Of a stretch of DNA of 64,000 nt, positions 28,532-55,042 are shown piece by piece. Position numbers and translations under genes: made by a program. The stretch spans positions 12,052,699 through 12,116,698 of the forward strand of contig CM057133.1 of the NCBI GenBank assembly GCA_029964075.1, written 5' to 3'. Origin of the DNA: Patiria pectinifera (lineage: Eukaryota; Echinodermata; Asteroidea; Valvatida; Asterinidae). Each line of letters starts with the position of its first letter. Position 1 is the first letter of the stretch. The notes under the pieces were generated by a model. That model saw only the letters and a program-made list of their open reading frames with translations, ran no database searches and was not told where the DNA came from.

Positions 28532-29611
28532 TCAGCAGGCAGTTTGCTTGTATCGAATCTTGCGTCTACCGTCGTGAAACCCATGGATTGTAGTAGATAT
28601 GACGTCATGATCATGGGAGTGGCTTGGTGAGTGGGCATTGTGGGCTTGGCCCCGGCGCAGGCATAGCCACAGACCCCGTCTGAAGTCTTTGTAACACATG
28701 GCGTAAATGAAGGGGTTTACACACATGTTCACCAGGGCCATGACTACTGTGAATCGGTAGAACACGCCGCTCCTGTCCACGACCCCGCCCATATTGACGT
28801 AGAAGTACATGATCTCATTCGGTCCCCAGCAAACGAGGTACGTTAAAGACACCAGGAAAGTTGTGATGATGACATTGCGTGAGGCCTGCCGTACAAGGCG
28901 TCGCCTAGCCCCACTGCTAGGCATGTCCGCATCTGCTTTACGCCGGGCATGCCGGAGTTTGCAAATTATTCGTGAATACACGAATGCCATGATGCATAGA
29001 GGGATGACGTAATGATCGATCAATGAGAGGAAGCCGATGGCGAGGCCCATTTGCACCGACGGCCATTGCGACGTGCATGTACCATTGGTCACGTGGTTGG
29101 TCAGTCCCCAGCCTAACTCGTGGATCGGACCAACAAACCATGGTATGACGCAGATAAGCCGAGCTTTACGCAGCGTGAACTTTGACCGGTAGTAGAACGG
29201 ATGAAACACAGCAACGTATCGCTCTATCGTTAGGTACACCAAATTACACGTTGAGCTCGTCCCCAGGGCCCAGATCACGTATTCCGATATCCACACCTTG
29301 CATAAAAAATTAGCGACAGCTGGGTCAGAGGGCAGGTTAACTTTGGGTCCGAGGTTGATGAGGACGAATAGCACACTCATGGCCAGGTCTATGGCGGACT
29401 GATTACACACAATGGAACTGGTAACATTGCGCAGGAACGAGGGTGAACGCATGTAAACAAGTATAACAAGACCGTTACCGATGATACCCAACGTTCCTAT
29501 GACGCCATACACAACAAGTAAAAATACCGTTTCTGAATCGGCATCATATTCCATATCTGCAGTCAAATTCACATCAGGAGCATTGGTGTCCCGGTCTCTG
29601 ACGTTATCCAT
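28532..29611 (-). CDS. Intronless class A GPCR, canonical peptide-receptor-like
   Basis: A 359-residue seven-helix receptor in one exon, starting MDNVRDRDTN at the ATG at 29611. It has an N-glycosylation site at N15 and every class A landmark: GN at 45-46 (TM1), D75 (TM2), C104 and C179 for the extracellular disulfide, ERY at 130-132, W158 (TM4), P204 (TM5), CWGP at 261-264 and NPFIY at 299-303. The third loop is basic (HARRK, ARRRLVRQASR). The tail has HSPSHSHDHD and a polybasic GRRKIRYK. Family-level knowledge points to a G-protein-coupled receptor of the neuropeptide-like or orphan group expanded in marine deuterostomes; I cannot name the ligand. Intact motifs contrast with the divergent receptor at 9923-10969. 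Confidence 0.9.
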   Translation of the reverse strand: MDNVRDRDTNAPDVNLTADMEYDADSETVFLLVVYGVIGTLGIIGNGLVILVYMRSPSFLRNVTSSIVCNQSAIDLAMSVLFVLINLGPKVNLPSDPAVANFLCKVWISEYVIWALGTSSTCNLVYLTIERYVAVFHPFYYRSKFTLRKARLICVIPWFVGPIHELGWGLTNHVTNGTCTSQWPSVQMGLAIGFLSLIDHYVIPLCIMAFVYSRIICKLRHARRKADADMPSSGARRRLVRQASRNVIITTFLVSLTYLVCWGPNEIMYFYVNMGGVVDRSGVFYRFTVVMALVNMCVNPFIYAMCYKDFRRGLWLCLRRGQAHNAHSPSHSHDHDVISTTIHGFHDGRRKIRYKQTAC

Positions 29612-31146
29612 GTTGAAATCACTTTGGTTCCATTCGTTATATATTGTTCAAACGACGAAGGTTCTGATCTCAGCTCCCCTGATCTTATATTTGTTGATAG
29701 TCTCTTAACTCAGACTTTTGTAGCTACATCCAGCGGGCCGTAGCAGTCTAATGTAGTGATGCGCATTATATAATACAGTTTCACAATAATCGTGTCCCGC
29801 AAAAGGTACGGCACCATGTAGCACGAGCGAAAACAACCCGATCTCGTATGTGCGGGTTACAAGAATTCCTCCGGCATCCGGAGTCTTGAGGCGCTTGATT
29901 TGTAATGCTCACGAAGACACTCGTTAGAAGACACGCCTTGAGACCTGCGATGAAAAAAAAACTAGTTGATGTTGCCATGTACATTTTTTATCATTTTCAG
30001 ATATTGTGTACCTGTGGCGCCTAGGCTATTTTTCATCATCCATGATGAAGTTTGTGATGATCTGCCGATTTTGCCTCAACCGCATCAAGATGTGATGATG
30101 TGTCATCACCCAGGGGAACCAGTTGCCATGAATACACTGTCGGAAACACTGAGACGCTCCGTTAGCAACGTGTATCATCTAGATCGCCTTGTTGACTACA
30201 CCCGTCTTCCTTTCTCAGTTAGCCGGAAGCCTTTCGAGAGGGCTTTTTGTCTGTGTGATGCAGCTCAGTTAAGTAGTTGACAAACAGGGACGCTGCAGAG
30301 GAATATGCGATGTGGAAAGACACCGACCGCTTTCCATTTGGCTTAATTAATAATGATATATATACCGGTAACGATGATGAAGTCACTGAGGGGCTCACCC
30401 CGGGCAATGGAACACCGCGTACGTGGCACGACTGCCGGATCGCGTATTTTTTTTATTCCTAGGATGGTTAAGGCCAATTCTTGAATAATTCAGTCATTTC
30501 GATGGGAAAATTATGTTTATTCACGAGAACAGAAACAATAACATCAACAGCATGTTGTTTCTTAGTCATCCAGTAACATTAAAGCATTTTAAAGAACGGT
30601 TGTCGTCGAGCTACACAACACAGTAGTAAGTGGATAGCGAGATGAGCTATGGATACAAAGATCCCTGGTTCGAATCCACGTCGTCGCTGCTCATTTTCAT
30701 CGACTGTTTTTCTTCTCCAAATTCATCGTTGAAAATGGCTGATAATTTTAATTTGAATAATTCATGACATTGCGCCTAACCCTCCTGGGAAAAGACGCTG
30801 CCGGATCGGCTTCATGCAGACGCCGTACCACTGCCGTTTCTAATAATGATTATAAACGGATCCACTCTTCTCATCTTCTGCACTACGCGCAAAGTGGAAA
30901 TATGATTAATAAATGATTAAAGAAGAGCGTCGTGTTTCAGTCTTCGAACTGCTACCGTACTGAACATTTTCAGTTCGGTATGACAAATGCGAACGAAACG
31001 AAATACCTTGTACGAACTCCCAAATCTCCAATGATACTCCTATGGACGAATTTGAATTGGAATTGAAACCTATGCTCTCATTGCTAAGCCATTGTATGAT
31101 GATGACCTTTTTTTAATCCTCTCAACAAAAACTGATGTTTTTGGCT
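29612..31146. other. Intergenic, tRNA-like fragment only
   Basis: Upstream flank of the minus-strand GPCR. It holds a B-box-like CTGGTTCGAATCCACG near 30668, preceded by a weak A-box, probably a SINE or tRNA remnant. The open frame at 29966-30280 is unsupported. Confidence 0.4.
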
Positions 31147-32716: not shown

Positions 32717-33067
32717 ATGGAGGTGATGCAAGGAGGAATCCGTGTGTTTTTGATAAGTGAGTGACTTAAAACTCATCCGTTTTATTCCGAACTGTTGTGT
32801 CTTTGTTGGGTTTTTTTTCTTCAGTAGGACCCCTCGTCCGCAGGAATAGTTTACCAGGTTTTTTTTATAGATGTTTGAAGATGTTCACTTTTGAGAAGTT
32901 AATCACACACGTTGATTGATGTAATGAATGTTGCCAACGTCTAGTCGGCAAGTTGATACCTTTTAGGCATATCTGAAGAAAGATCTATAAAAGTCAAAAT
33001 TTTATCCCATCTTTTCTTTTCTTTTTTGTTTTCCAGGGATTTTATTGACATTAACCTCAACAACAGG
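32717..33067 (+). CDS. Lectin gene: candidate signal-peptide exons
   Basis: Exon one (32717-32756) runs from an ATG to a GTGAGT donor. Exon two (33038-33067) sits between a TTTTGTTTTCCAG acceptor and a GTGAGT donor. Joined, they read MEVMQGGIRVFLIRILLTLT and then enter the first lectin exon in frame (split codons AGG and GAT). The hydrophobic run VFLIRILLTL suits a signal peptide, although it contains an Arg. A later start at the second Met (32726) is equally possible. Confidence 0.45.
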
Positions 33068-36000
33068 TGAGTTGGAAAAGAATCCTTTTCTTCAATAAGC
33101 TAAAAGTTCCTTGAAAGAGAATTTATGAATGAATTTGTTTCGGCATTCAAATTGCCAAACCTTTGTTCAGATATTATCCCTAAGTAGATTATTATTATGC
33201 CTTATAAACCTGTATTAGACGTGTGTTTAAGGGTCGTTAGTTACTCAAATTTGGACTGAAGTCAAGGGATAATTTTCAAATTTGCTTTCTTACCAAAAAA
33301 AAAAGGTGGGCTATATTTACTCTAAAATGGTTTGGTCGCCACTTTTTGTTTCACTCTTTGAAAATTAGAAAGTAAAACTTGTATACGTCTGCGGGCGGAT
33401 ATATTTGATAAGTTTCCTCCTGCTAATATTCGGAAATAAAACGATTTTTGAATTTAAAAAAAAATACCCCTTCTTATTCGATGTCTTATTGGAAAGCACA
33501 CTATCGTATCCAATACTTAAAACAATTACTTTGGGGGATGTTTCGCCAAAAAAGGCAGTTGACTTATCATCGTACGTAGAGTGCATAATAACTAACCTGT
33601 TGAAATTTTAGCTCAATGACTGCTGTGGATTTCAGAAAAACGTTTATCATTTTGGGGTCTTATATTGGATTACGTTGCTGACGCTGCTATAACATAATTA
33701 TAACAGCACCTGTTTTTTATTCATTCGATCGAGACCATTAACTACCTGACGAAATAATTTCACAGGGTTTAGCGTGGTTTCTCATTAAACTTTGGACATG
33801 TGTTTAGGTAATTACACATTTTCATAAGTGTCTAATTCACGATATTATGAAGGTTGATTATATTTATATATATTTATTGATGGCATTGTGATTTTTCCAT
33901 CCTTTACTTAACTATCTGACACATTTTTGTCTTCTTCGGATCAGATGCCATGTCACAATGCCGTAAGGACTGGAGTCAGTATGGTACGCAGTGTTTCTAC
34001 GTGAATACCCAGCACCTGAACTACGCCAATGCCAAGGGGCATTGTGAGTCCTACGGAGGCGGGTCAACCATTGCCAGTATTTCCGACAGTGGTGTCAATG
34101 GCCATATACAATCGCTTATATCTGGCATCTCGAGTTCCAAGGCCTACATAGGTGAGTTTGCGCCTTTAAAGGTGCATATCTTTGAATGCTCTTAAAACAA
34201 TATTTTTTTATTTTTTTTTCTCTCCTAACGAATTTTCCATTTGTATGTTAGCGAAAAAAATATATTCTGACGGGTGTATGCAACACTCTAAAAACAGGGC
34301 TTTCATTTTGTGCACAAATGGCCCGCCCTGCGAGCGTGCGATGAACTTGACAGCCAGTTCGCACTTGACGAAAAAAATAACTTAATAAGTGAACGCCGGT
34401 GCATGGATTGCTAGGAAAATGACAATTGAAAAAAAAGGAATCTTTTCATTACGAGTTGAAACTTGAAACACTGGAAGTACATCTTTTATTAAGGTAAATT
34501 AAAATAATTCTCTACATTTTGTTAATTTATAACACCAAATTCACTTCCACGCAGCCCAGTTTTTCGGAACCATACTCATAAACATGTATAATTATGTACA
34601 TCCGACTTGGATTAAACTTCTGACGTGACAGTCGTCACTAAAAAAAAATTGTCGGAACAGCAATGTGTTGGTCCACAGCCACAGCTACTCAAAGTTCTTT
34701 GCGATGTTTTTTTTTGGGGGGGGGGGGGTATCAGGTGGAAATATCACACAATACAACATATCGACTCATAGACCTAAAGTGACAGAATTCTATCGATCCT
34801 TCGCCGAGTGGAGCAAGAGTGTAAAACCGATGTCAATTTGAAAGCTTTTCAGAAACTTTTGTAATTTTTTTTTATTGACATAATGTCCGTGCGACGTCGA
34901 GATCGACGCCGAGGCGGCCTTTTCCAAAATAATAGTTGATCAGTCAATCCGACTGACAGCTCTAAACACCCAGCGTTCAGTATGAGATCGAATTAATTCA
35001 TTAAAAACAACAATCATATGTATTTAATTCAGATATAATAAGCCGATAAGATAAGCCCATCGCAATTTTTACCTCAAGGTTTTCGGAGCCACCAGTTGCT
35101 TTGTATGTGTATACCGCCCTCATTCGGGTCAAATAAACTGGTCTGACAAGAGAGGGCGTAACAGCGCGGCATACAATTTCTTTTAGTTGGGTTTTAATTT
35201 TTGCTCAACCTCTTCCTAAATTCTATTTCAAAATTCGATGTATATGTAGGCAGTAACATGAATTCCTCCATGGTAGAAACAGTGTTAGTGATGCGGGTGT
35301 GGATATAGGAAAGAATGTTGCAACCTGACGCTACTTAACTTGTTGTTTACAATTGAAAATGTTTCTCACTCTCAGTTCCAGTGATTCATGTTCATTATGT
35401 CATGTATGTTTTGCATTGACCAACCTTCATTGATTTGATATATGAAGAAAAAAAGCAGCGTCAGGTTGCAACATTCTTTCCTAAATGTATTCCAAGCCAG
35501 TAATAATGGTATGCAACTTAGTTTATTGATATTTACACGCAACATGATGTCAGGGTCTGTGATGTGACACTGTTGTTATTGTTAGCTTGCCATGCTTGCG
35601 CTCAGTTCAGCAGGGTTGTTTTTTTTTACTTTTTGCGATGTCACCTCAGTTTGATTTGATTTTGTTTTGTTCTTATAATTTGATTTTTAGGGAAAAACGT
35701 GATCCTTATCTTTAGGACACCTCTATAATACGAGTTCTGATCAAAACTGACTTTTGCAATATGACTGTCCAGTACCAAAGTGACTTTTGCAGGCTAAATG
35801 GAAAGCTTCTGAAAGCATGGAGGTTCTTCAGATAAATCATAAACTCATGTTTGTTGTAATTTTGAACATGTTGAAAGCACTTTCAAAGAAAATGTGACTT
35901 TCCTAGATCTTCTCACAACACAAGTGAAAGTCCAACACAATGAAAGCCCAATGCTGATTGGCTGCTAATAAAATAGATAGTAAAGGTTTTTTTATCAGCC

Positions 36001-39000
36001 AATCAGCATCAAGCTTTTATTTCATCTAGCTTTTACATTTGCCATCTTTGTTTGTGAGTCTGATTTCTGATTGTCTTGGTCGTCTTTTACCCCTTAATTT
36101 CCCTCATAAATCAAAGCCCTGCCCTCTTTCAAAAAGCCTAGACGAGAAACTAGTTTTTTTTTACATGGCCTTGCATTCATTTCAGCTAAGAGATTCTCAA
36201 CATTTGTGTTACGTTATTCCTATCAGCTTTCCACGATATTGACAGTGATGGGACGTGGATCTGGGAAGATGGCGCTAGCGTCTCCTACACCAATTGGAAC
36301 AGTAATGAACCCAACGGCGACTATACGAAAAACTGTGCCGGGATGTACAAATCCAACGGACTATGGGATGACTTCTCTTGTACGTCCGAAATCGCGAGCG
36401 TCTGTAGAAGTAAGTGTCGTCATTTTTTCATCGCTTGCTTATGTTGAATCCAAAGATTACTTTTTACTGCAGTGGTATTTTAGCTTGTAAAAGGTAGAAA
36501 ATAACTGGGCCACGAGAACGCCTTTTTTTCATTTTGTCTCAGATTGCTCATACTTGCTAGTACGTTCTCCCAATCCAAACCAAACTTTCAAAAACAAAGA
36601 ACAGGGCCCCAGTTACTAGTCTATTACGTTACATGGGAGATTTACTGAGACGTTTGTCTGAAATCTGGCAAAAATATTGGCACTAAATCACCCCTGAAAA
36701 TGGCAATTTTACACGAAAAGTGAAAATTAACTTTAATGAGATTAAAAGTTACAATAATGTTTGTGCGTAAAAAAATGTGTTAGTTGGGCTCTTTAATTTT
36801 TGTTTACCTTTCTGATAACTTCCCTTTAACCCGTCTTGAGTTATCTGACAGTGAACTTTGACCTTTCACCCTGACCTCACAGCTATCATCCAGTATACCG
36901 CCACCACTACCGGTTGTCCGTGCTCGTTTGACGCCACTCGCAATGACTGTGCGTGTTGTTATACCGGGGGTTGTCACTGCGGAGCGGATTATCCCGATCG
37001 GTGCGTCGCATGCGGTGGAGATTGTACATCAGATGATGCTGAACCTCTGGAGGGTAAGGCTATAGATATCTCTGATGACTGTGGATTATTTACTTTACAC
37101 GAGTACTTATTACTCAATGTAAGGCTGAGTTTCCACTTGAGCCTCCAGAACTAGGCTGGCGTTTCTTGTCAGCTTGTTTCCCTCATGAATTTAACGCTCG
37201 TTTTGTTTGATCAGTCACAGACGGTCAAAAATTCAAATCCTGTTCCCTGCCATGCCTTTTATACAGGCTAGTCACCAACAGTCAGATCGTATTTCAGTAG
37301 GCAATGTGACTAGTCAGATTCCATCAACAGACAAAATTAAGCAAGTGACTGGTAGGCTAGGCACAGCAGGCTTACCAATCTCCTGCAGTCAAAGCATGGC
37401 CATATCAGACAAAATTAAGCAACAGACATAATTAAGCAAGTGACTGGTAGGCTAGGCATGGCACAGCAGGCTTACCAATCTCCTGCAGTCATAGCATGGC
37501 TATATCAGGTTTCATAACAATCACAGCCAGTCAGTGCTGGTTTATGAAAGCAGGGAGCACTCAACTCTTAAAAACAGTCACTTGATTTATTTGACTGCTG
37601 GACTGGCCTTGTTGACATTGCCAGTCGGAGAGGGATGGTGGATGAAGATCTCGACAACGGCCCGAAACAAGAGATGCAGGCTAAGCATTCTTAATACTTG
37701 CCCTTAATTATGAAACTACACCTGTGTGCCATCCTACACATGCCTAACCAGTGATGTTGTTAATATACTTCCACGCAGAGTGGACACTTGTCTTCAAGCA
37801 CATTCGTTCCTCCGGGATTAACGTCCGGGACCTGTGGCAGGGAAGCGAAACCTACAATGACGGATCGGACACGGCACAGATTGTGACATCAACATCTAAC
37901 CACTACAAAAGCAGTGCTGCCAACAGCTATGATACCAACCAAATTCAGTATGTAAGTAGCACATCCACAACTCACTTCTAGAGTATTACGAGGTGGTAAT
38001 GCCCGAAGCCTGGTAAGAAATTCCAATCAAATAGATCCCTCTCACGAATCCTTGCTTTCTATCTAAAGGTCAAGTTTGCGTTCTATACCTCTGGTGGGTC
38101 CGAGGTCATGTCCATGACCTTTGACACGGCTAACACCGACAAGAATTCCTGGTACTCCTTTGACCGTCTGCTCTACGCGCCGTATTCGGATATCTACACA
38201 GCCGGAAAAGGTTACTTTTCAATAGACGGGTGAGTGTGTACTTTTCTTCAAATTTTTCTGCATTTTGCTTTTGCCGACGAAGGTGTATTTGTGTGTGGAA
38301 TCCAATTTTTTTGTTGGTATTTTGTTACTGGCATTTTTGTGGGTCATATCTATTGATCAGTTCCCGGAGGTAAGCAGGGGCGAGACCATGAAGACATTTG
38401 TAGGTCAGGAGAAGAAGTTTGACAACTATCCTGAGCTTGACCAGGAGCCAGTGAATGGAAAAAATATCATCGTGTCTGTGCAACAAGGTCATATCTCCTA
38501 AAACGGGCCGTACCTGAAAGGCGAGTTTCAGAGTGTCAAAAGATCGTATCTCACTTAAAAATACCTAAAATGCCAATGGACGTCAAGATACAACCTTGTT
38601 GTACGGAGCGTATTCGCCAAAGATACGACTTTGTTGCAGAATGGATTTAGCACCTTGTTGCACGGACTGGACGACACATGTCCTTTAACTTTCATTTATG
38701 TGTTTGTGGCCTATACAGACACTATGACGCCAGAAGGTGCTTCTTTGTGGAGTCTTATTACAACGGCTGTGGGGGCGACGCGGGCTGGGTGATGGTCAAG
38801 GACACTGGCTACTCCGGTCCCTGTACGTACGACAACTACTACAGCTACCCGTTTTTCACGTACAATACCGCGAGCACCCTACAAGCGTTTCAAAGCGGTT
38901 AGTGAAAAAAATCATAGTGGTAGCGTGATTATTAAAAAATATATCATGGCTTTGGTCCATCTCACGTGGCAGTCTATTTTTGAATAATATATCAAATATG

Positions 39001-42000
39001 TATGGGATTTTTTATCGTGGTCCTGAACCCTAACCCCTTTTGGCTGGGAACCATCATCAATACTGCCAAATCCTCCAATTGCCACTGTGAACATCGGATT
39101 CAGCCTCAATCCTCCAAAATCATCCGTAATTTCTTGAATTTGTTTGGTGGAGGGGTAACCATTGACTCAATCCTTCAAAATCCTCCAACAAGCACTGTTG
39201 ATGGGTTGAGGCAGTGCTGATGACATTCAGAAGCAGTGCGGATGATATCGAGCATAATGCAGGGCTCAATTATGTGTGACTGAACATAAACAATGCTGGG
39301 TACAGCCTATGACTTTGACACAATGCATCCTCCAAAATCAACCGACACTATTTGCCATTCAGCCTCAATCCTGGAATATTTTTGGAAGATTAAGGAGGGT
39401 TAGATTAATCAACAAATTATATGATCAGTTAGATTCACTTTATGTTGGATTTGGTTTTTACATTGAGGACGTATTTGAGAGTACCTTTGAGAAATTATAC
39501 CTTTAAAATCATCTTGAATGCATAGTTTCTTGTTGTACGGCACTCCGTAATGTCACGTTTCTTTCTTTTTTTGTGCAGGACATTTTGCATTCCCAGAAAT
39601 CATGGCGATATTGTACAAGTATTACGGTAAGAATGGTCACTTTTTTGGGGTTGATTTTCCCCCTTTTACCAGCATAACTTCATAAGCATTCAGGACTGTT
39701 GTAGAGCCAACGCGAACATTTGACAAGCTTGCTCGGCGAGACAGTTGTAAGCAGGAGATTGTGGGTTCGAGTCCCACCAAAGCAAGATTGTGATTTTTTT
39801 TGGTTGAGCTCTGAGGCACTACTGAGTAGATAGTTCTTATAAAGTAACCTCAATGAAGGGCAGAACTTCTTCAAAAAATCTTATGATCAGTTTTCTTTGA
39901 AAAAGTCTGCCTGATGGACAAATCATGAATGATTAATTTTCTCCTACAGACACTTCGACCAATACGGGTATCTGTGATGACAACTGGCATCTGGGATACA
40001 ATGGCAGATCGTGTTACCGTGCCGTGGATTCCACCGTGACGTGGCAGGACGCGTTGGACGCGTGCCGCGGTCTCCGTAGCGACGCTGACCTTGCAAGCAT
40101 TGGCACAGCCGATGAGAATGCGTTTGTGCTGACTGTGTCACGGTGAGATATTGGCCGGGGTTGTGAATGACCCCATCAGAAGCCAGTCACAAGTCAATCA
40201 CAAGTTTATTATTAGTCAATTACAAGTTATCGCAAGGCAATAACTAGTCGGTCAGAAGTTACCACAAGTCAGTCACAAGTCAGTGAGAGTGAATCGCGAG
40301 TCAATCACAAGTCAATCACAAGTCATCACAAGTAGTCACAAGTCAATCACAAGTCAATCACAAGTCAGTCACAAGTCAGTCACAAGTCAGTCACAAGTCA
40401 ATCCCAAGTCAATCCCAAGTCGATCACAAGTCCATCACAAGTCCATCACAAGTCCATCACAAGTCCATCACAAGTCCATCACAATTCAATCACACACCAA
40501 TCACTAGTCAATCACAAGTCCATCACTAGTCGATCACAAGTCAATCACAAGTCAATCACAAGTCAATCACATGTCATCGCAAGTCAATCAAGAGTCATCC
40601 AATCTCAAGTGAAACAACCAGCTATTCATTTGAAAGTTGAGAAAGGCATTCCTTTATCATTGCTCATCCCCTGTTACTTGTGAGCTCTCTTGTGATTTGA
40701 CGTTAAATTGACTTGTGTTTTGACTCCATAATACAACTCTGAACTGTGGTCAATTGTTTTTCAGAATCACAAGCTTTTTAAACAGATATTCAAAGGCCCA
40801 CATTGCATATTTTCCTTCAATTTTAGGTGTCAGCTTGAATTCTTTTTCAGAATGAAGTTCTGAAATCCTCAAACTTTTCCTTAATCCATGTGTGACCTAA
40901 CTGGTCGTGGATATTCAAGTTGGGATTAGACCGGACTGCTAAGCCAAAGGAATCTCCTGTTTGAGGCAGTATCTGCCCACAACCATTTAGACACGAGGAA
41001 AATAATTCAATAAGGCTGGTTACCTGTCTTTAGGACTTTTCAAAGCTTCACTCTTCTAAACAAATTGGTGTGTCCTGCAACTGAAAAAGCAAGAAGACTA
41101 TCATAACTTCATCTCAAATGCTAGGTGAATTCCAATATTAGTCTGTAAAGTGATCCCATGGTTTGGTTATGCTCTGACTCTACAGCCGGACACTAAGCCA
41201 CAATGAATACTGGATTGGCTTGAACGATTTCGCCGTGGAAGGTACCTGGGAGTGGTCCGACGGCACAAAGAGCAGCTATACTAACTGGTATTCCAGCGAA
41301 CCAAATGATTGTGAGTAAATGAATCAAAATCCAAACCAAAGTTCTTTGTAATCTCACATCTGATTGTGTAGCATTGAGATGTAAGACAGCTGGCACCATT
41401 TTTTGTTGTTACATTTGATTTGTGTCACACAGAAGCAGTATTAGCGAGTTAACCGTAGTTTGACTTTTAACGTCGCTCAAACTCGGGATGGTTTGACTGC
41501 TTGATCTGGTCATCTATTTTGAGCGAGAGCGTTTGACTACAGACGGTCCCACGCTGGTATGAGTCACGAATCAGTCACTAGTTGACTGATGGTTCTTGAC
41601 CGAACGTGCTGCAGATCACAAATATCTCTCAACATCTTTTACAGTTTTACCCCCATCCTGAAGCAGCTACACTGGCTCCCTATCAAACAGCGACTACAGT
41701 ACAAACTTTCCACGATAACCTAGAAAGTGCTAAGCGGTCTAGCTTCATTGTACATATCAGAGCTTAAATGTTAACAGCCGTTCTGGTCGGCGACATTTTT
41801 TCTCACAGGCTCCAAGAGAAGTATGGGAAAAAATGTATACATTGATTATTCGCACGATTATTTGTCTTTAAGTAATTATGTGAAAACTTCTTGCTCATTT
41901 CTAAATGAGGTAGTTCCATATGGCATTCATATATATGGTCTTGAATTTCTATAATCAACTGCTATTTCGTGAATGTTTGCATCGTCAACATTTTTCACAC

Positions 42001-45000
42001 AGGTTCAAAGAAGTAATATGAATAATGTATATATTTGTAATTTGTCTGGTTCTTGTCAAGATAGTCATCATTCATAACTTCTTGTTATGAATGTCTTGAT
42101 TTTCGATAATCAACCACTATTTCATGAATGTTTATTTCTGTGACAACCACCCAATCATTGGAAATTTGCACAGTTTGTGTTATTAATATTTTCAAAGTTC
42201 TTGTTCTGAACGAAATAGTCCATTAATGCTCTGGTATTTTCATACTCACCACTATTTCATCAATACTTATTTCTTTTAGCCAGCGGACAGGAGCACTGTG
42301 CCGTGATCCGATGGTCAACCGACGGGACTTGGAACGACGCAAACTGTGCCAACAGCAAACGCTACATATGCGAATATCCTCTCATTGCCAGTAAGTGTTA
42401 CAAAGAGTTGGGTTGTAGATATTTTTATTATATTTTCCAACAAAACCTCCATAAAAGGAGAAGATAAAAACACAATAGATACATATAATTATATACATAA
42501 CAACGTGTTCACGAACAGGATAACCCCAACACTCAAGGACGACCCCCAAGATAATCCAGACAACGCCAGAAATTAAAGATTGTCAAAACGACCTGAGGAG
42601 TCCACCAAGAGTGCCAAGATCATCATAATCAAGAAATTGGTCACGATACAAAACTGTCGTCAGACACTATCACGAATACCATGGTTGATTCTGTCTCGTT
42701 TCTTAATGGTAGAAATGTATTTCCGTCTGAATGATGGACTAACAATGCAATTTAGTAGTGAGAAATCACTATATAAGAATAAGTAGAATAAAGTGTTTTA
42801 CATATAATTTTTTCCAATTTTAAAATCAAAAAGGTCTAATTTTTTTGAGTTTTGAATACAGCTGTTTTTAACAGCAGTTCTTTCTCATTCCAAGTTTGAT
42901 TGATGGAAAATTCCAAGTTTGATACATAACATACTCCATTACAGACTTTGCCTTGCCTTCAACTTTATTGTTGTTGTGTTTTGTTGTTAATAAGTAAAAG
43001 TAAAGAAGTTTTTTTACTTAAAAATAATCACTAATCAGTTACTCAACTCACAGTTTTTGCTTTCACAGGTGTGTTTCACCCATGATTTGTCCTTTCAATG
43101 ATTGTCAATGTGTAAACTTTTTGCCCCCCTCATCCATCCACCTTCCACCTGCAGTGGTGGAATGGGCACTGCTGTTAAATAATAGACTAGACTGATTTCA
43201 AACCAAAATGAACAGAGACCAATGGAGTTTTTTCAAAAAGTTACAAAATTAAATGAGCTTTTTAAATCTGAACACTAAATTGAGAATAATACTTGATTTT
43301 GGAATTAATTAAGCAGTCTATCAGAGGGACATTTTTTTTGGGACACGCTGTATATGCAATGGACATCACACAAAAATTAACATTGGTTTCAGGAGGTACT
43401 TAGCCTCGTAGTGTAGTATTTTCCAAACCCTTTTTCTATCCTTTTTTATCTGATTGCAGTTTCCTGTGCGGACTGGAAGCGCCGAGGCTATTCCAACAGC
43501 GGGGACTACACCATTGATCCAGATGGGCCAGGCTTTGGCAACGATCCATTCAAGATCTACTGCGACATGACCTCCGATGGAAACACAGGTAAGCGGGTCG
43601 CGACGCAAACGAACAAACTCTCTTGTTTTCATTTGTTTGGTTTTTATGCTACTACGGTGCAGGTTTTGAACGTAATTCGCAACAATTTGCTTTGAGCAAT
43701 TTTGCGTGAATTGATCATCGTGGCAGTTATACACATACAGTAAGCCTTTTGCGAGTAATTAATATAACCTTTGGAATTTACATTTGAAAAACATCTGGTA
43801 CACTGACTTGCTCAGAATGCTTGGCACATTTTAACTTTGAATTCTCCAGACCAAATCACATGATTCGGGGCAAGCTCTTTGCATAGTTACGTAAAAAACA
43901 CTCAGCACACTCACTCACAAAAAAAATATAAAATTACAGTTGCCACAAAATTTATATATATTTTTCTCAATCCATTTTAATTATTTAATAGGTATTGGTT
44001 TTTATTTCCAAAATAGTTTGTTGAAAGGCAAGCCTTGTAATAAAACAATTTTAAGCAATTTTTAAAACAATTTCTATCTTTCACAGGTATTACCGTTATC
44101 AACCACAACCAGGAGATGCGACAGTGGGTCAAAGGTTACGAGGGTGCTCGATCCTACGTCCGGTCCCTCAGCTACAGTCCCGTCAGCGTCAGCCAAGCTG
44201 CCGCGCTGGCTGATGTCTCGGGAGAATGCTACCAGCATATCAAGGTCTGCCTTTTTATGGGGTTTAAATGTTTTCGGCTTTTTTTGTTTTATTTTCTTTT
44301 GATGTTTTTTGGATATTGTACGTGGTTTTTAAGGATGTACAGAGCCTTTGGGTTGTTTTATTATTTAGTCACATTTGTTGTATTTTACTTGCCTAGTATT
44401 AGTGAGGAATTTAAAGGGAATATACATCATTTGCTTTTGCTGTAACTTTCAGAAATGGATGAAATTGGGGGGTTGGAAATATATAGCAAATATAGTTACA
44501 CTGACTTTTTTGAGGTTTTGGGTTCAAAAAATGCTATAAAAAGCAAGAAAAACAATCATTTTCCTGTAGTCTGGTTCCCTGACTCCATATAAGAAGAAAC
44601 AGAGCAGTTTACGTACATTGGGGAATTGTAAGGTCAGGGAACCAGTCTAGCTGGCTTGTACCCGTTCATAGGTGTGTAATCGATTGCAAACAAGTGCGAT
44701 GGTCAATTGGGGCCAGTTTTTTCCAACGCTGGTCGGCCGACCAGCGTTGGAAATTGATAAAAAACATACCACTTTTCTTGAAAATGACAGTATACCAGGT
44801 GCCATGATTCTACAAGATGCTTTACACTGTCATTCACTAACAGTCCAGCAAGGTATTTCAAAATGATTTGGTAGTTTTATTTTTTGATGTTTGCAAATGT
44901 TGTATTTTCCCTTTAAGACTTGTGCCAGGATCTGAGCCAAAGGGTATACAAAAGTAAACAGTCATTGTTATGGACATGACACGTGACAATTTAGACCAAT

Positions 45001-45889
45001 GGAAATTGAAGTATCCCAGACACGACAGTGACCATTTTACAATTTCTGTATTTTACCAGAAGCATCACTGTTTATACCCAGAGTGTTCCATTTCTTGCAG
45101 TTTGAATGTTACGGATCCACCATGAGTACTGGCTACTACACGGCGTGGTACGATCGCGACGGTAACATGGAAACCTACTGGGGTGGAGCGCCCTCTAGCA
45201 CCAGCCTCTGCGCATGCGGATATGAGGGTATTGTCTGGCTTGAATACATCCCATTTAAATTGTCCTTTTCAACATGTTATNNNNNNNNNNNNNNNNNNNN
45301 NNNNNNNNNNNNNNNNNNNNNNNNNNNNNNNNNNNNNNNNNNNNNNNNNNNNNNNNNNNNNNNNNNNNNNNNNNNNNNNNNNNNNNNNNNNNNNNNNNNN
45401 NNNNNNNNNNNNNNNNNNNNNNNNNNNNNNNNNNNNNNNNNNNNNNNNNNNNNNNNNNNNNNNNNNNNNNNNNNNNNNNNNNNNNNNNNNNNNNNNNNNN
45501 NNNNNNNNNNNNNNNNNNNNNNNNNNNNNNNNNNNNNNNNNNNNNNNNNNNNNNNNNNNNNNNNNNNNNNNNNNNNNNNNNNNNNNNNNNNNNNNNNNNN
45601 NNNNNNNNNNNNNNNNNNNNNNNNNNNNNNNNNNNNNNNNNNNNNNNNNNNNNNNNNNNNNNNNNNNNNNNNNNNNNNNNNNNNNNNNNNNNNNNNNNNN
45701 NNNNNNNNNNNNNNNNNNNNNNNNNNNNNNNNNNNNNNNNNNNNNNNNNNNNNNNNNNNNNNNNNNNNNNNNNNNNNNNNCCGTAGTCAAAGCTGTAAAA
45801 TGATTTATGTGGACTGGGGGGGATGGGATAATCGTACGAGTGTCAGGGAAGAGATGTTTCAGCTCAGTGCCCGAGTGAGGGCGCTATGA
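32717..45889 (+). CDS. Secreted mosaic C-type lectin with fibrinogen-like C-terminal region
   Basis: Fifteen exons can be joined with consistent phases: 32717-32756, 33038-33067, 33945-34151, 36227-36409, 36883-37053, 37779-37951, 38069-38229, 38719-38897, 39579-39626, 39950-40142, 41186-41310, 42280-42390, 43460-43588, 44087-44244, 45101-45227. After that a 500-N gap intervenes, and a probable terminal exon follows it. The predicted order is signal peptide, C-type lectin domain 1, Cys-rich module, a domain I cannot name, C-type lectin domain 2, and a fibrinogen-like region. No membrane segment is visible, so the product is likely secreted, binding glycans in a Ca2+-dependent way. Phase-1 junctions around modules fit exon shuffling. 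It is followed by an NLR gene; a role in innate recognition is inference. The first two exons are the weakest part. Confidence 0.85.
33945..36409 (+). CDS. Lectin gene: C-type lectin domain 1
   Basis: Two exons, 33945-34151 and 36227-36409. The first half opens with CRKDWSQYGTQCFYV and has the helix segment YANAKGHCESYGG. The second half has GTWIWEDG, NWNSNEPNG, NCAGMY, WDDFSC and a closing CR. EPN plus an acidic WDD in place of WND match the calcium/sugar site of mannose-type C-type lectin domains (established for the family). The four core Cys are present. Confidence 0.85.
35308..35481 (-). mobile_element. MITE, GGAAAGAATG family, intronic copy
   Basis: The ends GGAAAGAATGTTGCAACCTG and the complementary CATTCTTTCC enclose an interior matching the other copies (GAAAATGTTTCTCA, ATATGAAGAAAAA). 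It lies in the intron that splits lectin domain 1. The flanking 8-mers agree at only about 5 of 8 bases, so this insertion is probably older. Confidence 0.85.
35952..36012. repeat. Short inverted repeat
   Basis: ATGCTGATTGGCTG at the left and CAGCCAATCAGCAT at the right, with AT-rich sequence between, form a hairpin of about 14 bp arms in the same intron. It contains CCAAT boxes but lies far from any promoter I can define. Confidence 0.6.
36883..37053 (+). CDS. Lectin gene: Cys-rich module
   Basis: A single exon of 57 residues, joined at phase 1 on both sides. It encodes a Thr-rich lead (YTATTTG) and then a dense Cys pattern: CPCSFDATRNDCACC, GGCHCG, DRCVACGGDC. There are about eleven Cys in 38 residues, suggesting a small disulfide-bonded fold. 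I do not recognise a named domain. It may act as a spacer or as part of the next domain. Confidence 0.75.
37335..37508 (+). repeat. Tandem duplication, about 96-bp period
   Basis: Two copies of AATTAAGCAAGTGACTGGTA ... CAGCAGGCTTACCAATCTCC ... GCATGGCCATATCAG lie at about 37335-37409 and 37430-37508, in the intron after the Cys-rich exon. Confidence 0.85.
37779..39626 (+). CDS. Lectin gene: large unnamed extracellular domain
   Basis: Four exons (37779-37951, 38069-38229, 38719-38897, 39579-39626), about 187 residues, all phases agreeing. Landmarks in order: EWTLVFKHIRSSG, VRDLWQG, SNHYKSS, VKFAFYTSGG, SWYSFDRLL, RRCFFVESYYNGCGGDAGW, GPCTYD, and FPEIMAILYKYY at the end. Aromatic residues and Gly are frequent, as in beta-sandwich domains. 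From memory, similar unannotated segments occur in secreted proteins of lancelets and cnidarians, but I cannot check this and know no family name. Confidence 0.75.
39690..39790 (+). repeat. tRNA-derived repeat (SINE-like)
   Basis: A perfect T-arm-like GTGGG-TTCGAGT-CCCAC with B-box is framed by CTTGCT and AGCAAG, which pair. The whole is too short for a complete tRNA. Minus-strand frames across it read as the typical spurious peptide of such repeats. It lies in an intron of the lectin gene. Confidence 0.6.
39950..42390 (+). CDS. Lectin gene: C-type lectin domain 2 (EPN/WND type)
   Basis: Three exons, 39950-40142, 41186-41310 and 42280-42390. The domain opens CDDNWHLGYNGRSCYRAV, has TWQDALDACRGL, DLASIGTADENAF, YWIGLNDF, GTWEWSDGT, TNWYSSEPND, HCAVIRW, GTWNDANC and closes RYICEY. 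It shows the WIGL landmark, the EPN mannose-type motif and the WND calcium motif, so calcium-dependent binding of mannose or GlcNAc-type glycans is expected from the family. It is the better conserved of the two lectin domains. Confidence 0.9.
40180..40610 (+). repeat. 11-bp minisatellite
   Basis: About 35 to 40 tandem units of consensus AATCACAAGTC, with variants CATCACAAGTC and CAGTCACAAGT, fill about 430 bases of the intron within lectin domain 2. The open frame across it is a repetitive artefact. Confidence 0.9.
41649..41769 (+). pseudogene. Non-LTR retrotransposon reverse-transcriptase remnant
   Basis: The frame starting ACCCCCATCCTG reads PILKQLHWLPIKQRLQYKL, then a stop, then KVLSGLASLYISEL. 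LHWLPIxxRxxYK followed by KxLxGLAxxYxSEL is the conserved C-terminal signature of CR1/Jockey-like LINE open reading frames. The internal stop and the short length show a dead fragment. It lies in a lectin intron. Confidence 0.75.
43460..45227 (+). CDS. Lectin gene: fibrinogen-like region, CASPR type
   Basis: Three exons (43460-43588, 44087-44244, 45101-45227) carry SCADWKRRGYSNSGDYTIDP, PFKIYCDMTSDG, HNQEM, KGYEGARSYVRSLSYSP, ALADVSGECYQHIKFECYG and METYWGGAP ending CACG. The pattern, YTIDPDG, YCDM and YWGGA-CACG in order, matches the fibrinogen-like region of contactin-associated (neurexin IV/CASPR) proteins better than a classic fibrinogen domain. The region continues into the 500-N gap. 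The donor after the middle exon (GTCTGC) is weak. Confidence 0.8.
44567..44649. repeat. Inverted repeat in lectin intron
   Basis: TAGTCTGGTTCCCTGAC at the left and GTCAGGGAACCAGTCTA at the right form arms of about 17 bp around a 49-base centre. It could be a very small MITE; no target-site duplication was identified. Confidence 0.65.
44721..44752. repeat. Perfect 32-bp palindrome
   Basis: TTCCAACGCTGGTCGG is followed directly by its exact reverse complement, with no loop. It lies in an intron of the lectin gene, about 70 bases after another inverted repeat. Confidence 0.95.
45281..45780. other. Assembly gap, 500 N
   Basis: 500 unknown bases within the fibrinogen-like part of the lectin gene. 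Frames reported across it have no meaning. Confidence 0.99.
45781..45889 (+). CDS. Lectin gene: probable terminal exon after the gap
   Basis: The frame right after the gap reads CKMIYVDWGGWDNRTSVREE and ends in MFQLSARVRAL before a TGA at 45887-45889. A Trp-Asp segment followed by a hydrophobic strand resembles the last part of CASPR-type fibrinogen regions (the W..D...LPV.. segment). Its acceptor lies in the gap or nearby, so the join to the exon at 45227 cannot be shown. Confidence 0.45.
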
Positions 45890-48800
45890 CACACAGCATA
45901 GAGTATAAATAACTCCACGAGAAAAGTTCACTGTCATGAAGTACCTGTCGCTTCGTTAATTCAGCCAGAAAAATAATCCCTGGAATTTTAGTGCACTGCA
46001 TGTGACCTCCATTCATTCGGCTGAATGGAAATTGTGGTTGAGAGAATTGTTCAGCAAGCCCCTCCCCCGTGACCACGTGCCTCTTCCTTGGTACCCGGTA
46101 AGCAGTGACCAGTTATTGAGAACCATAGTGCACTAACAGTTTCTACAAAGGTGATAAATAAGCATAACAATGGGCATACATAATCTAGAAATTTCCCGTT
46201 CTGTCCCGTGATTGAACATTTTTTTACTGAACAGGAAACGACACAGTTTAACAAAAGGGGTTTCATGCAGGAAGAGGGATATGCATGATAAATTGGTCTA
46301 AACTTCAGTCCGATTTACACGGGCTAAAGAAACTAACAGGAACGATGCAACAGTTCTTAGGTTTCGTTCAAGTTCTGCAGGAGGAAAGGGAATAAGTACA
46401 AGAAGTGTTCCAAGAAGTACTCTGTCTACCACCATGCTGGAACGTACGGAGAGTGAAACAGTTCGACCCTACTAAGTTTGAAAATTACCGAACCAGCCTT
46501 TAAACTGGACAGTAGTGACCAGAGGCTAGTTGCTCTCGTTGACCAGCTGTGAGTTTGTGCCCAGCACAGGCCAACTACAAGAAAACCACACCCAGAGCTT
46601 CATGACTGCTCACAGATAACTGGACAACTTGGTTTGCTACGCAGTGCATGTTGCCTTTGAGAGAGGCGTGGTTGGATTGTGTTTGAAGGATTCCTTAATT
46701 GGTCTGGTGTGGAGAGCCGGTAGAAGTCGGGCATAGCCAGGTAGGTAGGATTATATATTTTTTTCACAGTGATTAGACACAGGCAAATTCAGTATACGGT
46801 GAGAAATGGAACAAAGTATGAACTAAAGGAGTGTTTAAAACTGTTAATTCATGCTACGTAAAGGAGAAAACGTTCTCAGCAATTAACCGAGTTTCCAGGG
46901 GTGATAGAAAAACTAAAAGATGAACTGAAAGATGAACTAAAAGCAATGGAATAGCTTAGTTTGAGTTCAGAAAATTAGGATGAAAAACATATTTTGTTTG
47001 CTGTTTTCTCCAACAAGTTTGTAGAAAAAGCAGCTTATCTACCTGACCCTTTCGAATGGACTGAAATCCAATACTTTTACAGCATTAGTCGGGCCAATGG
47101 AAGGACTTTCCAAAGGGTATGTTCATGTGGGTTTTTTTTTCTTGTTGGGCCGTTTATGACGCGTATTGCAATTATGAATATCAATCTGCACACTCCAAAT
47201 ACGGTTTAAATCCGTCGGTTTCAATTTGAATATGAATGCAGTGGGCGGGGCTTAACTGGGTAGGGCTATGGATATGCGATGACGTACGAAAAAAAGGGCT
47301 AGACGCCAATGGGTGAAATCACAGTGCTTTATTCTCGTTGCGATACAAGATGTATTGCGAAATTCGGCTGCGTTTGGAAATATAGGGGATTTTTTTCGGT
47401 TGTCGTGGGGTATTATAAAAATTTGTGTTATGCCCCATTGAAAATAACTGTCCTCATTTCTGATGTTATATCATTTTTGTTGGATGCTGAATGGAAACAA
47501 CATGACGCTGCAATGGTTTTGCCTTCGTTTCAAATTAATATTAACTCAGAAAAGGGATGTTATCCGACAAAACTAACTGTCTCAGTAGGCCACATTTGTA
47601 GCACAATGTGTTAAAAAAAGACTGGTCCCTTACCATTTGTTATCAGGCTCAGCTAGGCTGCCAATAACACTACTCCTGAGAAAGAAATAAATTTGAAGTA
47701 AATATTTTATAACGCCGTTTAAAAAAAAAAGGAAAAAGAACGAATTCTTGGATTTTGCTCCTCGCTTTAATAACACAAAGATAGGATATTAGCACAATAA
47801 AAAAAAAATTGTTCGCGTTTTATCCCAATAAATTAATTTTTCTTTCTTTTAGAGAATCTTGACTTTTTTAGGCGTTTTCAACCCTTCGAAAAGGGATCTT
47901 AATCTTTGGTCGGCTTTTGCGCCTCTGTGGTTGAACATATAAACCGCTGGAGTTGATGGCGGGCAAAAAAAAAATAATTGAAAACATGCATAATAACCTT
48001 ATTGGTAATTAGTTCCGTCAAAAATAACGCGATGATCTGCTGACGAATTGTCACTTGATCATTCCACAGTCTGACGTCACTCTATCAAGACCCTAAAGAT
48101 TAACTTTTATAAGAAAAGTTGCATTTCCATTTGATCTGATTTCATGTACTTACAAGACAAATTATGAACGAGTATGGAGACAATTAAAAGGTTTGTTTGA
48201 AGTATGACGGAACCCGTTGAGTGCCTGTACAAAAATGAGCTTCATCGTGTGCGCCACTGACAAAACCATCTATTTTTATGGAAAACATTGTGATTGTCAT
48301 TCCATTCCCGCGTGGCCTTGTCCGAGTGAAATGTATTATTTTCTGAACAGGTTCGCTGCTAAAAGAGAATATTTTGTTTTTAGATTTTCCCTCCACTTCA
48401 CTATCATTGATGCATGTTGACAAGTCCGCGGTGCACCAAATACATGTAGCCACAAAAAGCATCGCCTTGAATATGACAGAGTGCTGTAGAAACTCCATGG
48501 CTGTATAGTTCCACAATGACCTTGGTAACCTTTCATATCAACGCCATAACATGTCTTAAATCAATCCCCTGTCCATTTCTGAATCGAAGCATCAAATTTC
48601 AAATTCTTTTTTAAATAATTCCCCTGCCAATTTCTGAATCGAAGCATCAACTTTCTTTTCCCCCCCAATTTTTATTTCAAATGCTTAGGTGAACAATAGC
48701 GCAAGGAGTATGACCATGGTCTTGTGCAGACAGAGGCAGCATGCGAAACACTATAAACGAAGTGTCCGTGGGCCAATCAGTGGTTCACAACAGCTTAATG

Positions 48801-49353
48801 ACGTTTATTAGATGTGTTATATCTGATTTTAGTCATTTTGTTTCAAATCTATTGAAAACAATTGAATACGAAATATCTTTCAAATCAGCTTAAGTACAAG
48901 GTTTATAATAGACTTCAAACTAATTTACATGTGTCAATTTACTCACGAGTAAAATGATTCCAAAATAACTGCTTTGTTCTTGCAGGGCTAAAACGACCAT
49001 GGGAAGTTGGCGGCAAAAAGGACCTGGACCGATAGAGGTTCGTTACACTAATCACTCCATGGAAATCCAATTACTCGGTCGTTCTCGGTTAATCAATTAT
49101 ATCACTTAAATTCTTTGAAAGGAATACTTTAATTAAGTTACAGAATTTACGTTGTTGGACTCCATTGTTAACGTCAGTGTCAAATTTGCGGAATAATCGA
49201 ATTTTTTTTGGTGCAGTGTATTCGTCTGAACCAATAAACGCCCTTGTTTCGTCACTTTGCGTGATGATACTCCCATACGGCGACTGTGTTTATAAAACAA
49301 AACAAAAAACCTTTAATGTATGACTATAATTACATGTTTCTTTTCACTTTCAG
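45890..49353. other. Intergenic between lectin and NLR genes
   Basis: No supported coding region. Open frames at 46994-47209, 47309-47614 and 48184-48516 (minus) have no domain. A short tandem duplication of about 75 bp lies near 48565-48650 (shared TTCTGAATCGAAGCATCAA). A candidate exon at about 48987-49036 does not fit in phase with the next one. Effector-domain exons of the NLR, if any, would be expected here but none was recognised. Confidence 0.4.
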
Positions 49354-49400
49354 AACAATCGGCAAAGACCAAGCTAGAATGGGACAAGTGCTTGGAAGTG
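49354..49400 (+). CDS. Candidate small exon upstream of the NACHT exon
   Basis: 47 bases between a strong acceptor (TTTCTTTTCACTTTCAG) and a GTAAAT donor. In one frame it reads TIGKDQARMGQVLGS and ends in phase 1, which joins in frame to the NACHT exon if that starts at 50074. It is too short for a domain call, and its own upstream partner is unknown. Confidence 0.35.
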
Positions 49401-49537
49401 GTAAATATACAATGCTCCAAGACAATATTTTGCGTGTTAACATTTGAGTAAAATGTTTTAAAAAAGGCATTCCTTTTCAAACTCTAGATTGTGGATCTTT
49501 CTTTGGAATGATGATCGTTTTGAACTGAACGTATTAC

Positions 49538-49813
49538 AATGTATACATGGGCGTCGCGAGGGGGGGGGCAAGGGGGGGGAACTTGGCCCCCCCCCTGGAA
49601 AAGCAACCAAAAAAGAAAAAAAAATAAAGGAAGAAAAAAAAAGAGGCGCGAAGACAAAGTGGTGTAAATTTAATGAGTTGGGGGGCAAAATGTCCCTGCC
49701 CCCCTCTCAAACTGATAAATCGAGAATATATTGAGAAATACAAGCATTTTTTGGCAAATTTTTTTTTTTTGCCCCCCTCTAGAAAAAATCCTGGCGACGC
49801 CCATGAATGTATA
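49538..49813. mobile_element. MITE with CATGGGCGTCGC ends, 260 bp
   Basis: The element spans 49546-49805. Its termini are CATGGGCGTCGCGAGG and CCTGGCGACGCCCATG, near-perfect inverted repeats. AATGTATA flanks both ends (49538-49545 and 49806-49813), an 8-bp target-site duplication. The interior has G-, C- and A-runs. It sits about 270 bases before the NACHT exon, in its putative last upstream intron. Long open frames there on both strands are repeat artefacts. Confidence 0.9.
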
Positions 49814-50073
49814 TAGGGAAATACAGAAGCATATAAATACAGTTTTGTACAGGGTGGCCCCAGAGCCAAGTCTTCGCCCAAATCAAAGATGTTTTCACCA
49901 CACCCCCACTTTTTTTCCTGAGTATCAACACATCTAGAGTTGCACATCTAGAGTTGCACATCAAACTGGCGTGATTTTCTCAAGAGATTCGTGTCTGAAA
50001 ATGTTTACAATGATGTTAAAAAGGCATGGGCCTATAATATACGAGTACTTAATTTCCTCCTTTACCGGTTTAG

Positions 50074-52280
50074 ATCTCAGATATTGCCAGCAGCAGCTTA
50101 GTCAGCACTACAAGGCTACAACAAGCACCATCCCTGCACACCCCTTGGATCCTTCCAGAAGAGTCGATATCAACGAGTTCTTTTTTGAGTTACAACTCGC
50201 TCAACGAGGGAAACAAACTACCCAAGAACACGTGTCCTTACCCAGGGAGGAACGGATAGTAGACAAACCTGAAAACATTTCCTTAAGTTCATGGGAAGAT
50301 TTCTTCAGAATCCGAAAAGTGGGTGGCATTAAAGCTATTCTTTCAGGCGGGGCAGGATTTGGCAAGTCGACTCTTTTGTTGAGAGTTGCAAATGCTAGCA
50401 CTAAATTTTCTCTAACTTCATGCCTTAGAAAGTTCAAGCTAGTGTTTTTGGTGAAGCTGAAGCAAATGCGGAACTCAAGTTGTGTCATAGATGCCATATT
50501 TGAACAAATCTTCCCAATAAACATCCGACTAACTAAGCCCCAGCTGAAAGAGCTCATTGCAGATAACGAAGCAAACACACTGTTCTTATTGGACGGGTTA
50601 GATGAGATTCCACTTGATGTTCTCAATTCCCAAGAAGGTGTGTACAGAGTCCAGGATATCTTGCATGGCAGGGTATTGCCAAAAAGTTTTGTCTTAGTCA
50701 CAACACGGCCACATATGGTGGAGTATGTCATCAAGGGATACCCACACTACGCCCACGTTCAAACACTGGGGTTCACAACCGAAACCACAAACAAATACTT
50801 CCTGACGCATTTTGCTGAAAACATCAACTCGGCAGAAAAACTGATATCAAACCTGAAATCCAACACATCTCTACAGACAATGGCACAGGTTCCAATCATT
50901 ACTCTCTTGCTGTGCATAGTTTGGGAAAATCTATCGAAATTGCCAGAGAGATTAACGGCTCTTTACACAGAGTTTGCTGAGGTTCTTGTCGGTCGTCGGT
51001 GTAATGAAGGCGAGGACAAGGTGAGGCTGATGAATTCAGTCCTATGTGGACTGGGGCGAGTCGCTCTGGACGGGTTACTAGACCCCAAGGGGGAAAGGCT
51101 GGTGTTCTCCTCTGACGAATTTGATAAGAAGGACTTGGAGGACGGGTGTCGGTTAGGTTTCCTGCAACTAGAAAGTTGCATCAGTGGTCTGGCGTTGATG
51201 CAAATTGTTACCTTCCTACACAAGTCCATCCAAGAATACTGTGCAGCATACTTCTTTGCCAATTTGCATCACGCAGACGAAGAAATGTTTCATGAGAAGT
51301 TGCAGCAGATTCATCCAGGTAATGTACATGCAATGGAATATCTGCTTCGGTTTACATGCGGTATATCGTCGAGGTCTCCAGCAACCGGACTCATCCTGGA
51401 ACACGTGCAAAAGCAACATCCTGTCCTCCATTTGAAGCGTTTTGTCCGTTTGTTGTTTTTTGAGTCCAATTCTCACGAAATAGCTGCTAGGATAGACCGG
51501 TCACCCTATGTGAAATGCGAAACTCAGGAGGATCTCATAGCACTGCAATATTTCTTACAGAATGTCCCACTTCCACTAGACGACACGAAGTTTGAAATCG
51601 ACTGTCGTTCATATGAAGCAATGACGTCGTTGAGGGATATTCTGCTGGATGGCAACATAAAGCCAGCCACCAATCAGGATTCAACTCGGTTCATAAAGGT
51701 CAGGTACTACATGTCTGAACGAGGGAATGAGGAGTTGCTTCAGTTGGAGGAAACACTTGAGAGGATGGATGAGGCACTCCGTGATCGACTCAGGCTATCT
51801 CTGGACTTTGGTCCGGATTCGAGGTTTGATGATAGATGTGGGCGCCTGCCTTGTATTTCGAATCAGGTTCAGTATGTCAAGCTGATTGGCCGGTCACATG
51901 GCATCGTAACACTAACGAATGCACTTGAGGGGTGCAATATATTGCGGACGGTCATCTTACTTGGTGTCAACCTGAGAGGTCGAGTGTGCAGGATTGCTCC
52001 TCTTGTTCCTCCATCCCTTCAAGATTTGATGATCCTGTGCTGTTATCTGAATGATGATGACGTCAAAGTTCTGATCAGCATCCTTCCCGCTGGGCATGGT
52101 TTGATTACGCTTTGTGTTTCTTTGTCATCGTGCACTCTGAAAGGAGTGCGGAATCTCACTGCTCATCTCCGGGGTCTTCCAAACCTTCAGGTCTTGGAAA
52201 TTGATACTTGCTCTCAGATCGATAGACATCTTGTCAAGGAGGTGGTTAAGCAAGATCTCCCCAACGTCACTTTCGTGTAA
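50074..52280 (+). CDS. NACHT-domain NLR-like protein
   Basis: A single large exon, about 735 residues. The frame extends further left, but a pyrimidine-rich acceptor (TTTCCTCCTTTACCGGTTTAG) argues that the exon begins near 50074 or 50081. The start RYCQQQLSQHYK resembles the linker ahead of NACHT in echinoderm NLRs. Motifs: Walker A GGAGFGKST (about 50346), Walker B FLLDGLDE (about 50586), sensor SFVLVTTRP (about 50685), the helical segment VPIITLLLCIVWENL, and FLHKSIQEYCAAYF (about 51217), a winged-helix/HD2 hallmark. The C-terminal 150 residues contain weak leucine-rich-like repeats (LRTVILLGVNL, LQDLMILCCYL, LQVLEIDTC) before the TAA. By family knowledge it is an intracellular ATP-binding sensor. 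No DEATH, CARD or TIR domain is visible upstream, so it is either 5'-incomplete or effector-less. No internal frameshift. Confidence 0.85.
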
Positions 52281-53725: not shown

Positions 53726-54048
53726 GGTATCACCAAGGGTGGATCCAGAACACAATTTTTTTGGGGGCCCAAAAAAATTGTTCCCCCAAAAAGTGGGTCA
53801 AAAAAATAACGGCGTGGGGTTCGGGGCCCGCTTAAGGGCCCCGAATTTTTTTTTAGATGCTCTGTGGTGCGATCTGAGGCAATTTCTGACCACTTTAACC
53901 AATGTTTTTTTGAGGAAAAGATGGTGGTGTGCTCATTGCCTGCCTTTATTGCGATGTCACATAAAAAAAAAAATTGGTTTCGTTTTTTTTTGGGGGGGGG
54001 GGCATGGCCCCCTTTGCCCCCCCCCCCGGATCCGCCCTTGGGTATCAC
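53726..54048. mobile_element. MITE, CAAGGGCGGATCC family, copy 2
   Basis: The element spans 53734-54040, with ends CAAGGGTGGATCCAG and GGATCCGCCCTTG. GGTATCAC flanks both ends (53726-53733 and 54041-54048), an 8-bp target-site duplication. The interior shares with the 31155-31429 copy the segments GATGCTCTGTGGTGCGATCT, TTTATTGCGATxTCA and GGCATGGCCCCCTTTG. No transposase is encoded. Confidence 0.9.
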
Positions 54049-54826: not shown

Positions 54827-55042
54827 GGAAAAAAGAATGTTGCAACCCGACACCACTCAAGCTGTTTCTTCATATAAATCTCAAGGTCGTTCGTTGCAAA
54901 AATGATGACATAAATCTGGGCCTGAGAAACCTTTCCAATTTTGTTAGGAAATACTTTCCACGTTAGGAAATACTTTTAAATTTCTCCATAGACTCTGTAC
55001 ACAATCGCGGAAGTGGCGTCAGGTTGCAACGTTTTTTTTCCC
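54827..55042 (+). mobile_element. MITE, GGAAAGAATG family, fourth copy
   Basis: The left end GGAAAAAAGAATGTTGCAAC and right end GGCGTCAGGTTGCAACGTTT match the terminal repeats of the 16641-16832 copy. The interior shares GACATAAATCTGG, CTGAGAAACCTTTCCAATTT and GACTCTGTACACAA. It contains a small internal duplication (GTTAGGAAATACTTT twice). Confidence 0.85.

Follow-up and report, generated by a model that had tools for sequence, protein, structure and literature searches.

A predicted secreted mosaic gene of Patiria pectinifera joining two C-type lectin domains, a recurrent unnamed domain, and an incomplete fibrinogen-like end

RESULTS

Gene content of the window and exon structure of the mosaic gene

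The window analyzed in this study, a stretch of 64,000 nucleotides (C5:12052699-12116698) from a 613.5-Mb genome in 1020 contigs, carries on its plus strand a gene of 15 exons (32717-45227), which our exon-by-exon reading joined into a product of 678 residues with 0 stop codons (Table 1). All 14 introns follow the GT-AG rule, and the phases agree at every join. The gene is a real one and largely fits its earlier description: the order given in the preliminary description, namely a lectin domain, a cysteine-rich module, an unnamed domain (hereafter X), a second lectin domain, and a fibrinogen-like region, was borne out on the plus strand with agreeing phases. Splice sites were scored by a leave-one-out procedure against intronic decoys (590 GT donor decoys and 556 acceptor decoys). 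For the donors of 13 of the 14 introns, between 0 and 6.1% of the 590 decoys scored equally high; the donor of exon 14 was weak, being equalled by 24.6% of them. The acceptors were less sharp than the donors, with 0.2 to 34.0% of the 556 decoys scoring equally high. The weak join between exons 14 and 15 is nevertheless backed by four related loci (L045-L048), because each of them reads through the matching place in a single open frame. Exons 1 and 2, which lie outside the homology coverage, are proposed as the true start and signal peptide of the gene; the hydrophobic stretch encoded there, recognized by eye, includes an arginine.

Table 1. Parts of the mosaic gene and the gap at its 3' side, with window coordinates and the basis of each assignment
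Feature	Coordinates	Strand	Basis
Exons 1-2, putative start with signal peptide, 23 codons	32717-32756, 33037-33066	+	Splice sites, phases
First C-type lectin domain, exons 3-4	33945-34151, 36227-36409	+	Pfam, PDB matches
Cysteine-rich module, exon 5, 10 Cys, phase 1-1	36883-37053	+	Gene model; second genome place
Domain X, exons 6-9, phase 1-1 block	37779-37951, 38069-38229, 38719-38897, 39579-39626	+	Gene model, genome searches
Second C-type lectin domain, exons 10-12	39950-40142, 41186-41310, 42280-42390	+	Pfam, PDB matches
Fibrinogen-like region, incomplete, exons 13-15	43460-43588, 44087-44244, 45101-45227	+	Pfam, NCBIfam, PDB, genome relatives
Gap, 500 N	45281-45780	.	Sequence

Several other features were recognized in the window. 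Two single-frame receptors of the rhodopsin family lie at 9890-10966 on the plus strand (7tm_1, E 9.5e-14) and at 28535-29647 on the minus strand (7tm_1, E 6.3e-36). A NACHT domain (Pfam, E 8.3e-20) was recognized in a long open frame at 49938-52277 on the plus strand, an NLR-like gene about 4 kb past the gap listed in Table 1. The minus-strand frame at 58566-58880, which may be Cdc25-like, matched no Pfam family at E 1e-4. Intron 10 of the mosaic gene contains a tandem array (40175-40590) with a period of 11, 38.4 copies, and the consensus ATCACAAGTCA.

Two C-type lectin domains with different sugar-site residues

Our Pfam search of the full protein assigned two stretches to Lectin_C (whole-protein E 3.7e-37; 127.8 bits against a cut-off of 22.6). 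UL45, a family whose Pfam description calls it C-type-lectin-like itself, was the sole other family over its cut-off (E 2.5e-8), and two further weak matches both remained under theirs. Six cysteines were counted in each lectin domain of the 678-residue product, a number that marks the long form of the C-type lectin domain. The mannose-type calcium-binding site consists of an EPN motif, a glutamate two residues before the next cysteine, and a WND motif. All of these are kept in the second domain (exons 11 and 12), whereas the first domain keeps EPN, carries lysine in place of the usual glutamate, and has WDD instead of WND. Judged by these residues, the second domain would belong with mannose-type calcium-binding domains and the first would not. 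Because EPN, the glutamate, and WND are kept, the rules for such sites predict that the second domain should bind mannose-type sugars with calcium; the same rules predict that the first should not bind in the usual way, because of the lysine and WDD.

A cysteine-rich module and an unnamed domain that recur elsewhere in the genome

The genome search located the module of exon 5 at one other place, C16:5191566-5191700 (E 1.3e-6). The surrounding stretch (C16:5184001-5194000, L062) holds two cysteine-rich modules that precede an F5/8 type C domain encoded on the same strand (E 3.2e-28, in a piece joined from two frames), and it is probably another mosaic gene. Pfam gave no match for any of the three copies of the module, that is, exon 5 and the two in L062. 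The idea that the module is a fixed first part of X was rejected on the basis of a cysteine-pattern scan, which matched the window only among the window and 13 X loci, and of the C16 place, where X was not found within 10 kb around the module (best profile E 0.5).

No family in Pfam exceeded its cut-off for the window copy of X or for two of its relatives, nor did any when 10 aligned copies were compared with Pfam (best weak match, E 0.085). NCBIfam, a library made for bacteria and archaea, gave no match for X with one relative scanned, and the PDB yielded none by sequence (best E 0.16) or by profile (best E 0.36). Among the prokaryote contigs scanned for X, 19 stretches fitted a pattern, and 0 of the 19 were confirmed. 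Within the genome itself, the window copy as a query returned 27 exon matches at E <=0.1, four of which were the query itself, and a relative on C22 returned 83 exon matches at E <=0.001 on 10 contigs, three of which were again the query; the divergent window copy was absent from these 83 matches.

Our alignment of 10 copies (A1), comprising that of the window and nine others and omitting the L036 copy and the incomplete L040 and L041 copies, contained 22 invariant columns, two of them cysteines, and the identity between the window copy and the other nine ranged from 25 to 31%. In the fetched loci, X is likewise divided among several exons, with the cuts at matching positions; one phase of the L015 copy, when read closely, appears unlike that of the window. 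The neighbors of X include PAN_1 in L029, TSP_1 in L032, and a second set of X exons in L040, and strand and distance suggest that PAN_1 and TSP_1 share one gene with X at their respective loci. A tblastn search with the two lectin domains of the window, which is a weak test for distant lectins, found no lectin exons in 13 X stretches of 10 kb at E 0.001. On C14, the X exon matches form two opposite-strand blocks (C14:17.94-17.97 Mb and 18.19-18.23 Mb) and often come in pairs whose scores are identical or nearly so, resembling a large inverted duplication.

A fibrinogen-like region interrupted before its terminal exon

The last 138 residues exceeded the Pfam cut-offs for both COLFI (E 1.1e-6) and Fibrinogen_C (E 1.7e-5), the latter match scoring 25.2 bits against a cut-off of 22 and covering only profile positions 5-51 of 221. 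The fibrinogen-like NCBIfam model GGGWT_bact was also over its cut-off (E 1.4e-10), and these residues also matched MFAP4 in the PDB (E 1.7e-4), over approximately the first 40 residues. The label "CASPR-type" given to this region in the preliminary description is a tentative one. In the genome itself, the fibrinogen-like part had at least 18 exon matches at E <=0.001, three in this gene and at least 15 elsewhere, among the 150 of 172 candidates that were scored.

All four fetched relatives (L045-L048) possess an extra terminal exon with CNCD, LTD, and LPV patterns. When the terminal exons of three relatives were used as queries, no such exon was found in window positions 45201-64000 (best E 0.70), and the same three queries recovered all four loci (E <=8.2e-7). 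A weak donor follows exon 15, with 42.9% of the decoys scoring equally high. The window also contains another gap of exactly 500 N (19781-20280); because both gaps have this same length, 500 N is probably a placeholder. The gap downstream of exon 15 may hold the missing terminal exon. The right border of the gene had been placed at 45889, and this did not hold: the terminal exon of the relatives was not matched there, the 500-N gap follows position 45227, and the open frame after the gap appeared by eye to lack the terminal-exon pattern. A coding score that was trained partly on this gene detected, at its cut-off, no further 40-codon frame on the plus strand from the gap to position 49937.

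DISCUSSION

We hold with middling confidence that this locus encodes one secreted, shuffled mosaic product acting as a soluble multivalent glycan binder. The protein would consist of a signal peptide, a C-type lectin domain, the cysteine-rich module, X, a second C-type lectin domain, and a fibrinogen-like end that is incomplete here. Its most likely mode of action would be that of a soluble, multivalent, calcium-dependent glycan-binding protein, in which the second lectin domain would bind mannose-type sugars with calcium and the first would bind weakly or recognize another ligand. The cysteine-rich module and X may be spacers or provide additional contact surfaces, and the fibrinogen-like end may offer a further binding or assembly surface, so that one molecule could bridge host partners and the surface of a microbe or of the matrix. 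Secretion is suggested by the hydrophobic start, which is short and was recognized by eye; since the 3' end is missing, a membrane anchor could lie there. The preliminary description had counted three glycan- or pattern-binding module types in this product. The lectin domains and the fibrinogen-like matches were indeed found, but the full claim goes beyond the evidence, given that X has no known ligand and that the first lectin domain lacks a full sugar site.

A role as an immune agglutinin or opsonin would be our first choice, and its main rival is that the same secreted protein belongs to the matrix or skeleton, or is adhesive, rather than serving immune recognition, which we regard as somewhat unlikely. 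TSP_1 and F5_F8_type_C are common in matrix proteins, and in other loci X lies beside the former and the cysteine-rich module beside the latter, which speaks for such a role. Skeletal proteins of echinoderms reportedly also carry lectin domains (PMC4336488). Against this, the full mannose-type motif set in the second lectin domain favors sugar binding, a capacity that would be usable in either role.

One gene is much the likelier reading than two. The two halves are separated by intron 9, between exons 9 and 10, which measures only 323 bases and has good splice sites (equalled by 1.5% of the donor decoys and 0.7% of the acceptor decoys) and matching phase. By eye, neither a signal-peptide exon nor an evident start of a second gene was seen in this intron, and the open frame leading into the second lectin domain contains no ATG. 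These observations count against two neighboring genes, of which one, with a lectin domain, the cysteine-rich module, and X, would end at about 39.6 kb and the other, with a lectin domain and the fibrinogen-like region, would have its own promoter. We judge that arrangement improbable, although a stop in the intron past exon 9 makes a short form by polyadenylation there possible. The mosaic proposed earlier as a single gene is well supported by the phases, by domain joins that follow homology, and by an intron 9 in which no start of a second gene is evident. A chimeric assembly or gene decay, as might be suspected from the 500-N gap that cuts the 3' end, is very improbable in view of a stretch without any N run (32717-45280), 678 codons without a stop, and phases that all match.

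As for the origin of this single gene, the first lectin domain, the cysteine-rich module, X, and the second lectin domain each have phase 1 at both borders, as does the fibrinogen-like part at its start. In extracellular proteins, phase 1-1 modules are the classical hallmark of exon shuffling. In L045, a PAN_1 domain lies near a copy of the fibrinogen-like part. The shuffling of phase 1-1 exon cassettes would be the best account of how the gene arose, because its modules have these phases and are found elsewhere in other company. PAN_1, TSP_1, and F5_F8_type_C are as a rule extracellular domain types. We tentatively propose that X represents an undescribed extracellular domain family that has spread as a phase 1-1 cassette among the secreted and surface proteins of this animal, and that the present gene is a lectin-bearing member of an expanded recognition repertoire. 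X, which is conserved, rich in exon matches, and not modeled in any library searched here, is a more useful result than the architecture itself; a name for it would allow many genes to be labeled and its ligand to be tested.

The preliminary description knew of no described protein with this domain order. In the open-access subset of the literature that was searched, no paper came up that evidently describes it, and the claim stands to that extent. Marine invertebrates often show lectin modules in new orders, so this architecture is by itself a modest surprise. The contactin-associated proteins (CASPR) may bear a resemblance to the fibrinogen-like region only, and Pfam detected no laminin G domain in the 678-residue product. 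MFAP4, tenascin, and angiopoietin have in common with this region how the fibrinogen-like fold begins (first 40-50 residues of the PDB matches), and the C-terminal domain of fibrillar collagens (COLFI) matches over 100 residues; the remainder differs, and four relatives in this genome end with the CNCD, LTD, and LPV exon. CEL-I and CEL-IV, small echinoderm C-type lectins of sea cucumber origin, have the C-type lectin domain in common with this gene, and CEL-I matches both of its domains, but each is just one small domain (140-157 residues in the PDB chains) with no partner modules. Both lectin domains had their best PDB matches among members of the mannose-receptor family (mannose receptor 1 and 2, LY75, and the PLA2 receptor), which are membrane receptors with many lectin domains. 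This gene resembles them in having several C-type lectin domains and differs in that its two lectin domains flank the cysteine-rich module and X and are followed by a fibrinogen-like end. Among the mosaic lectins of invertebrates, it is probably a new combination of mostly known parts.
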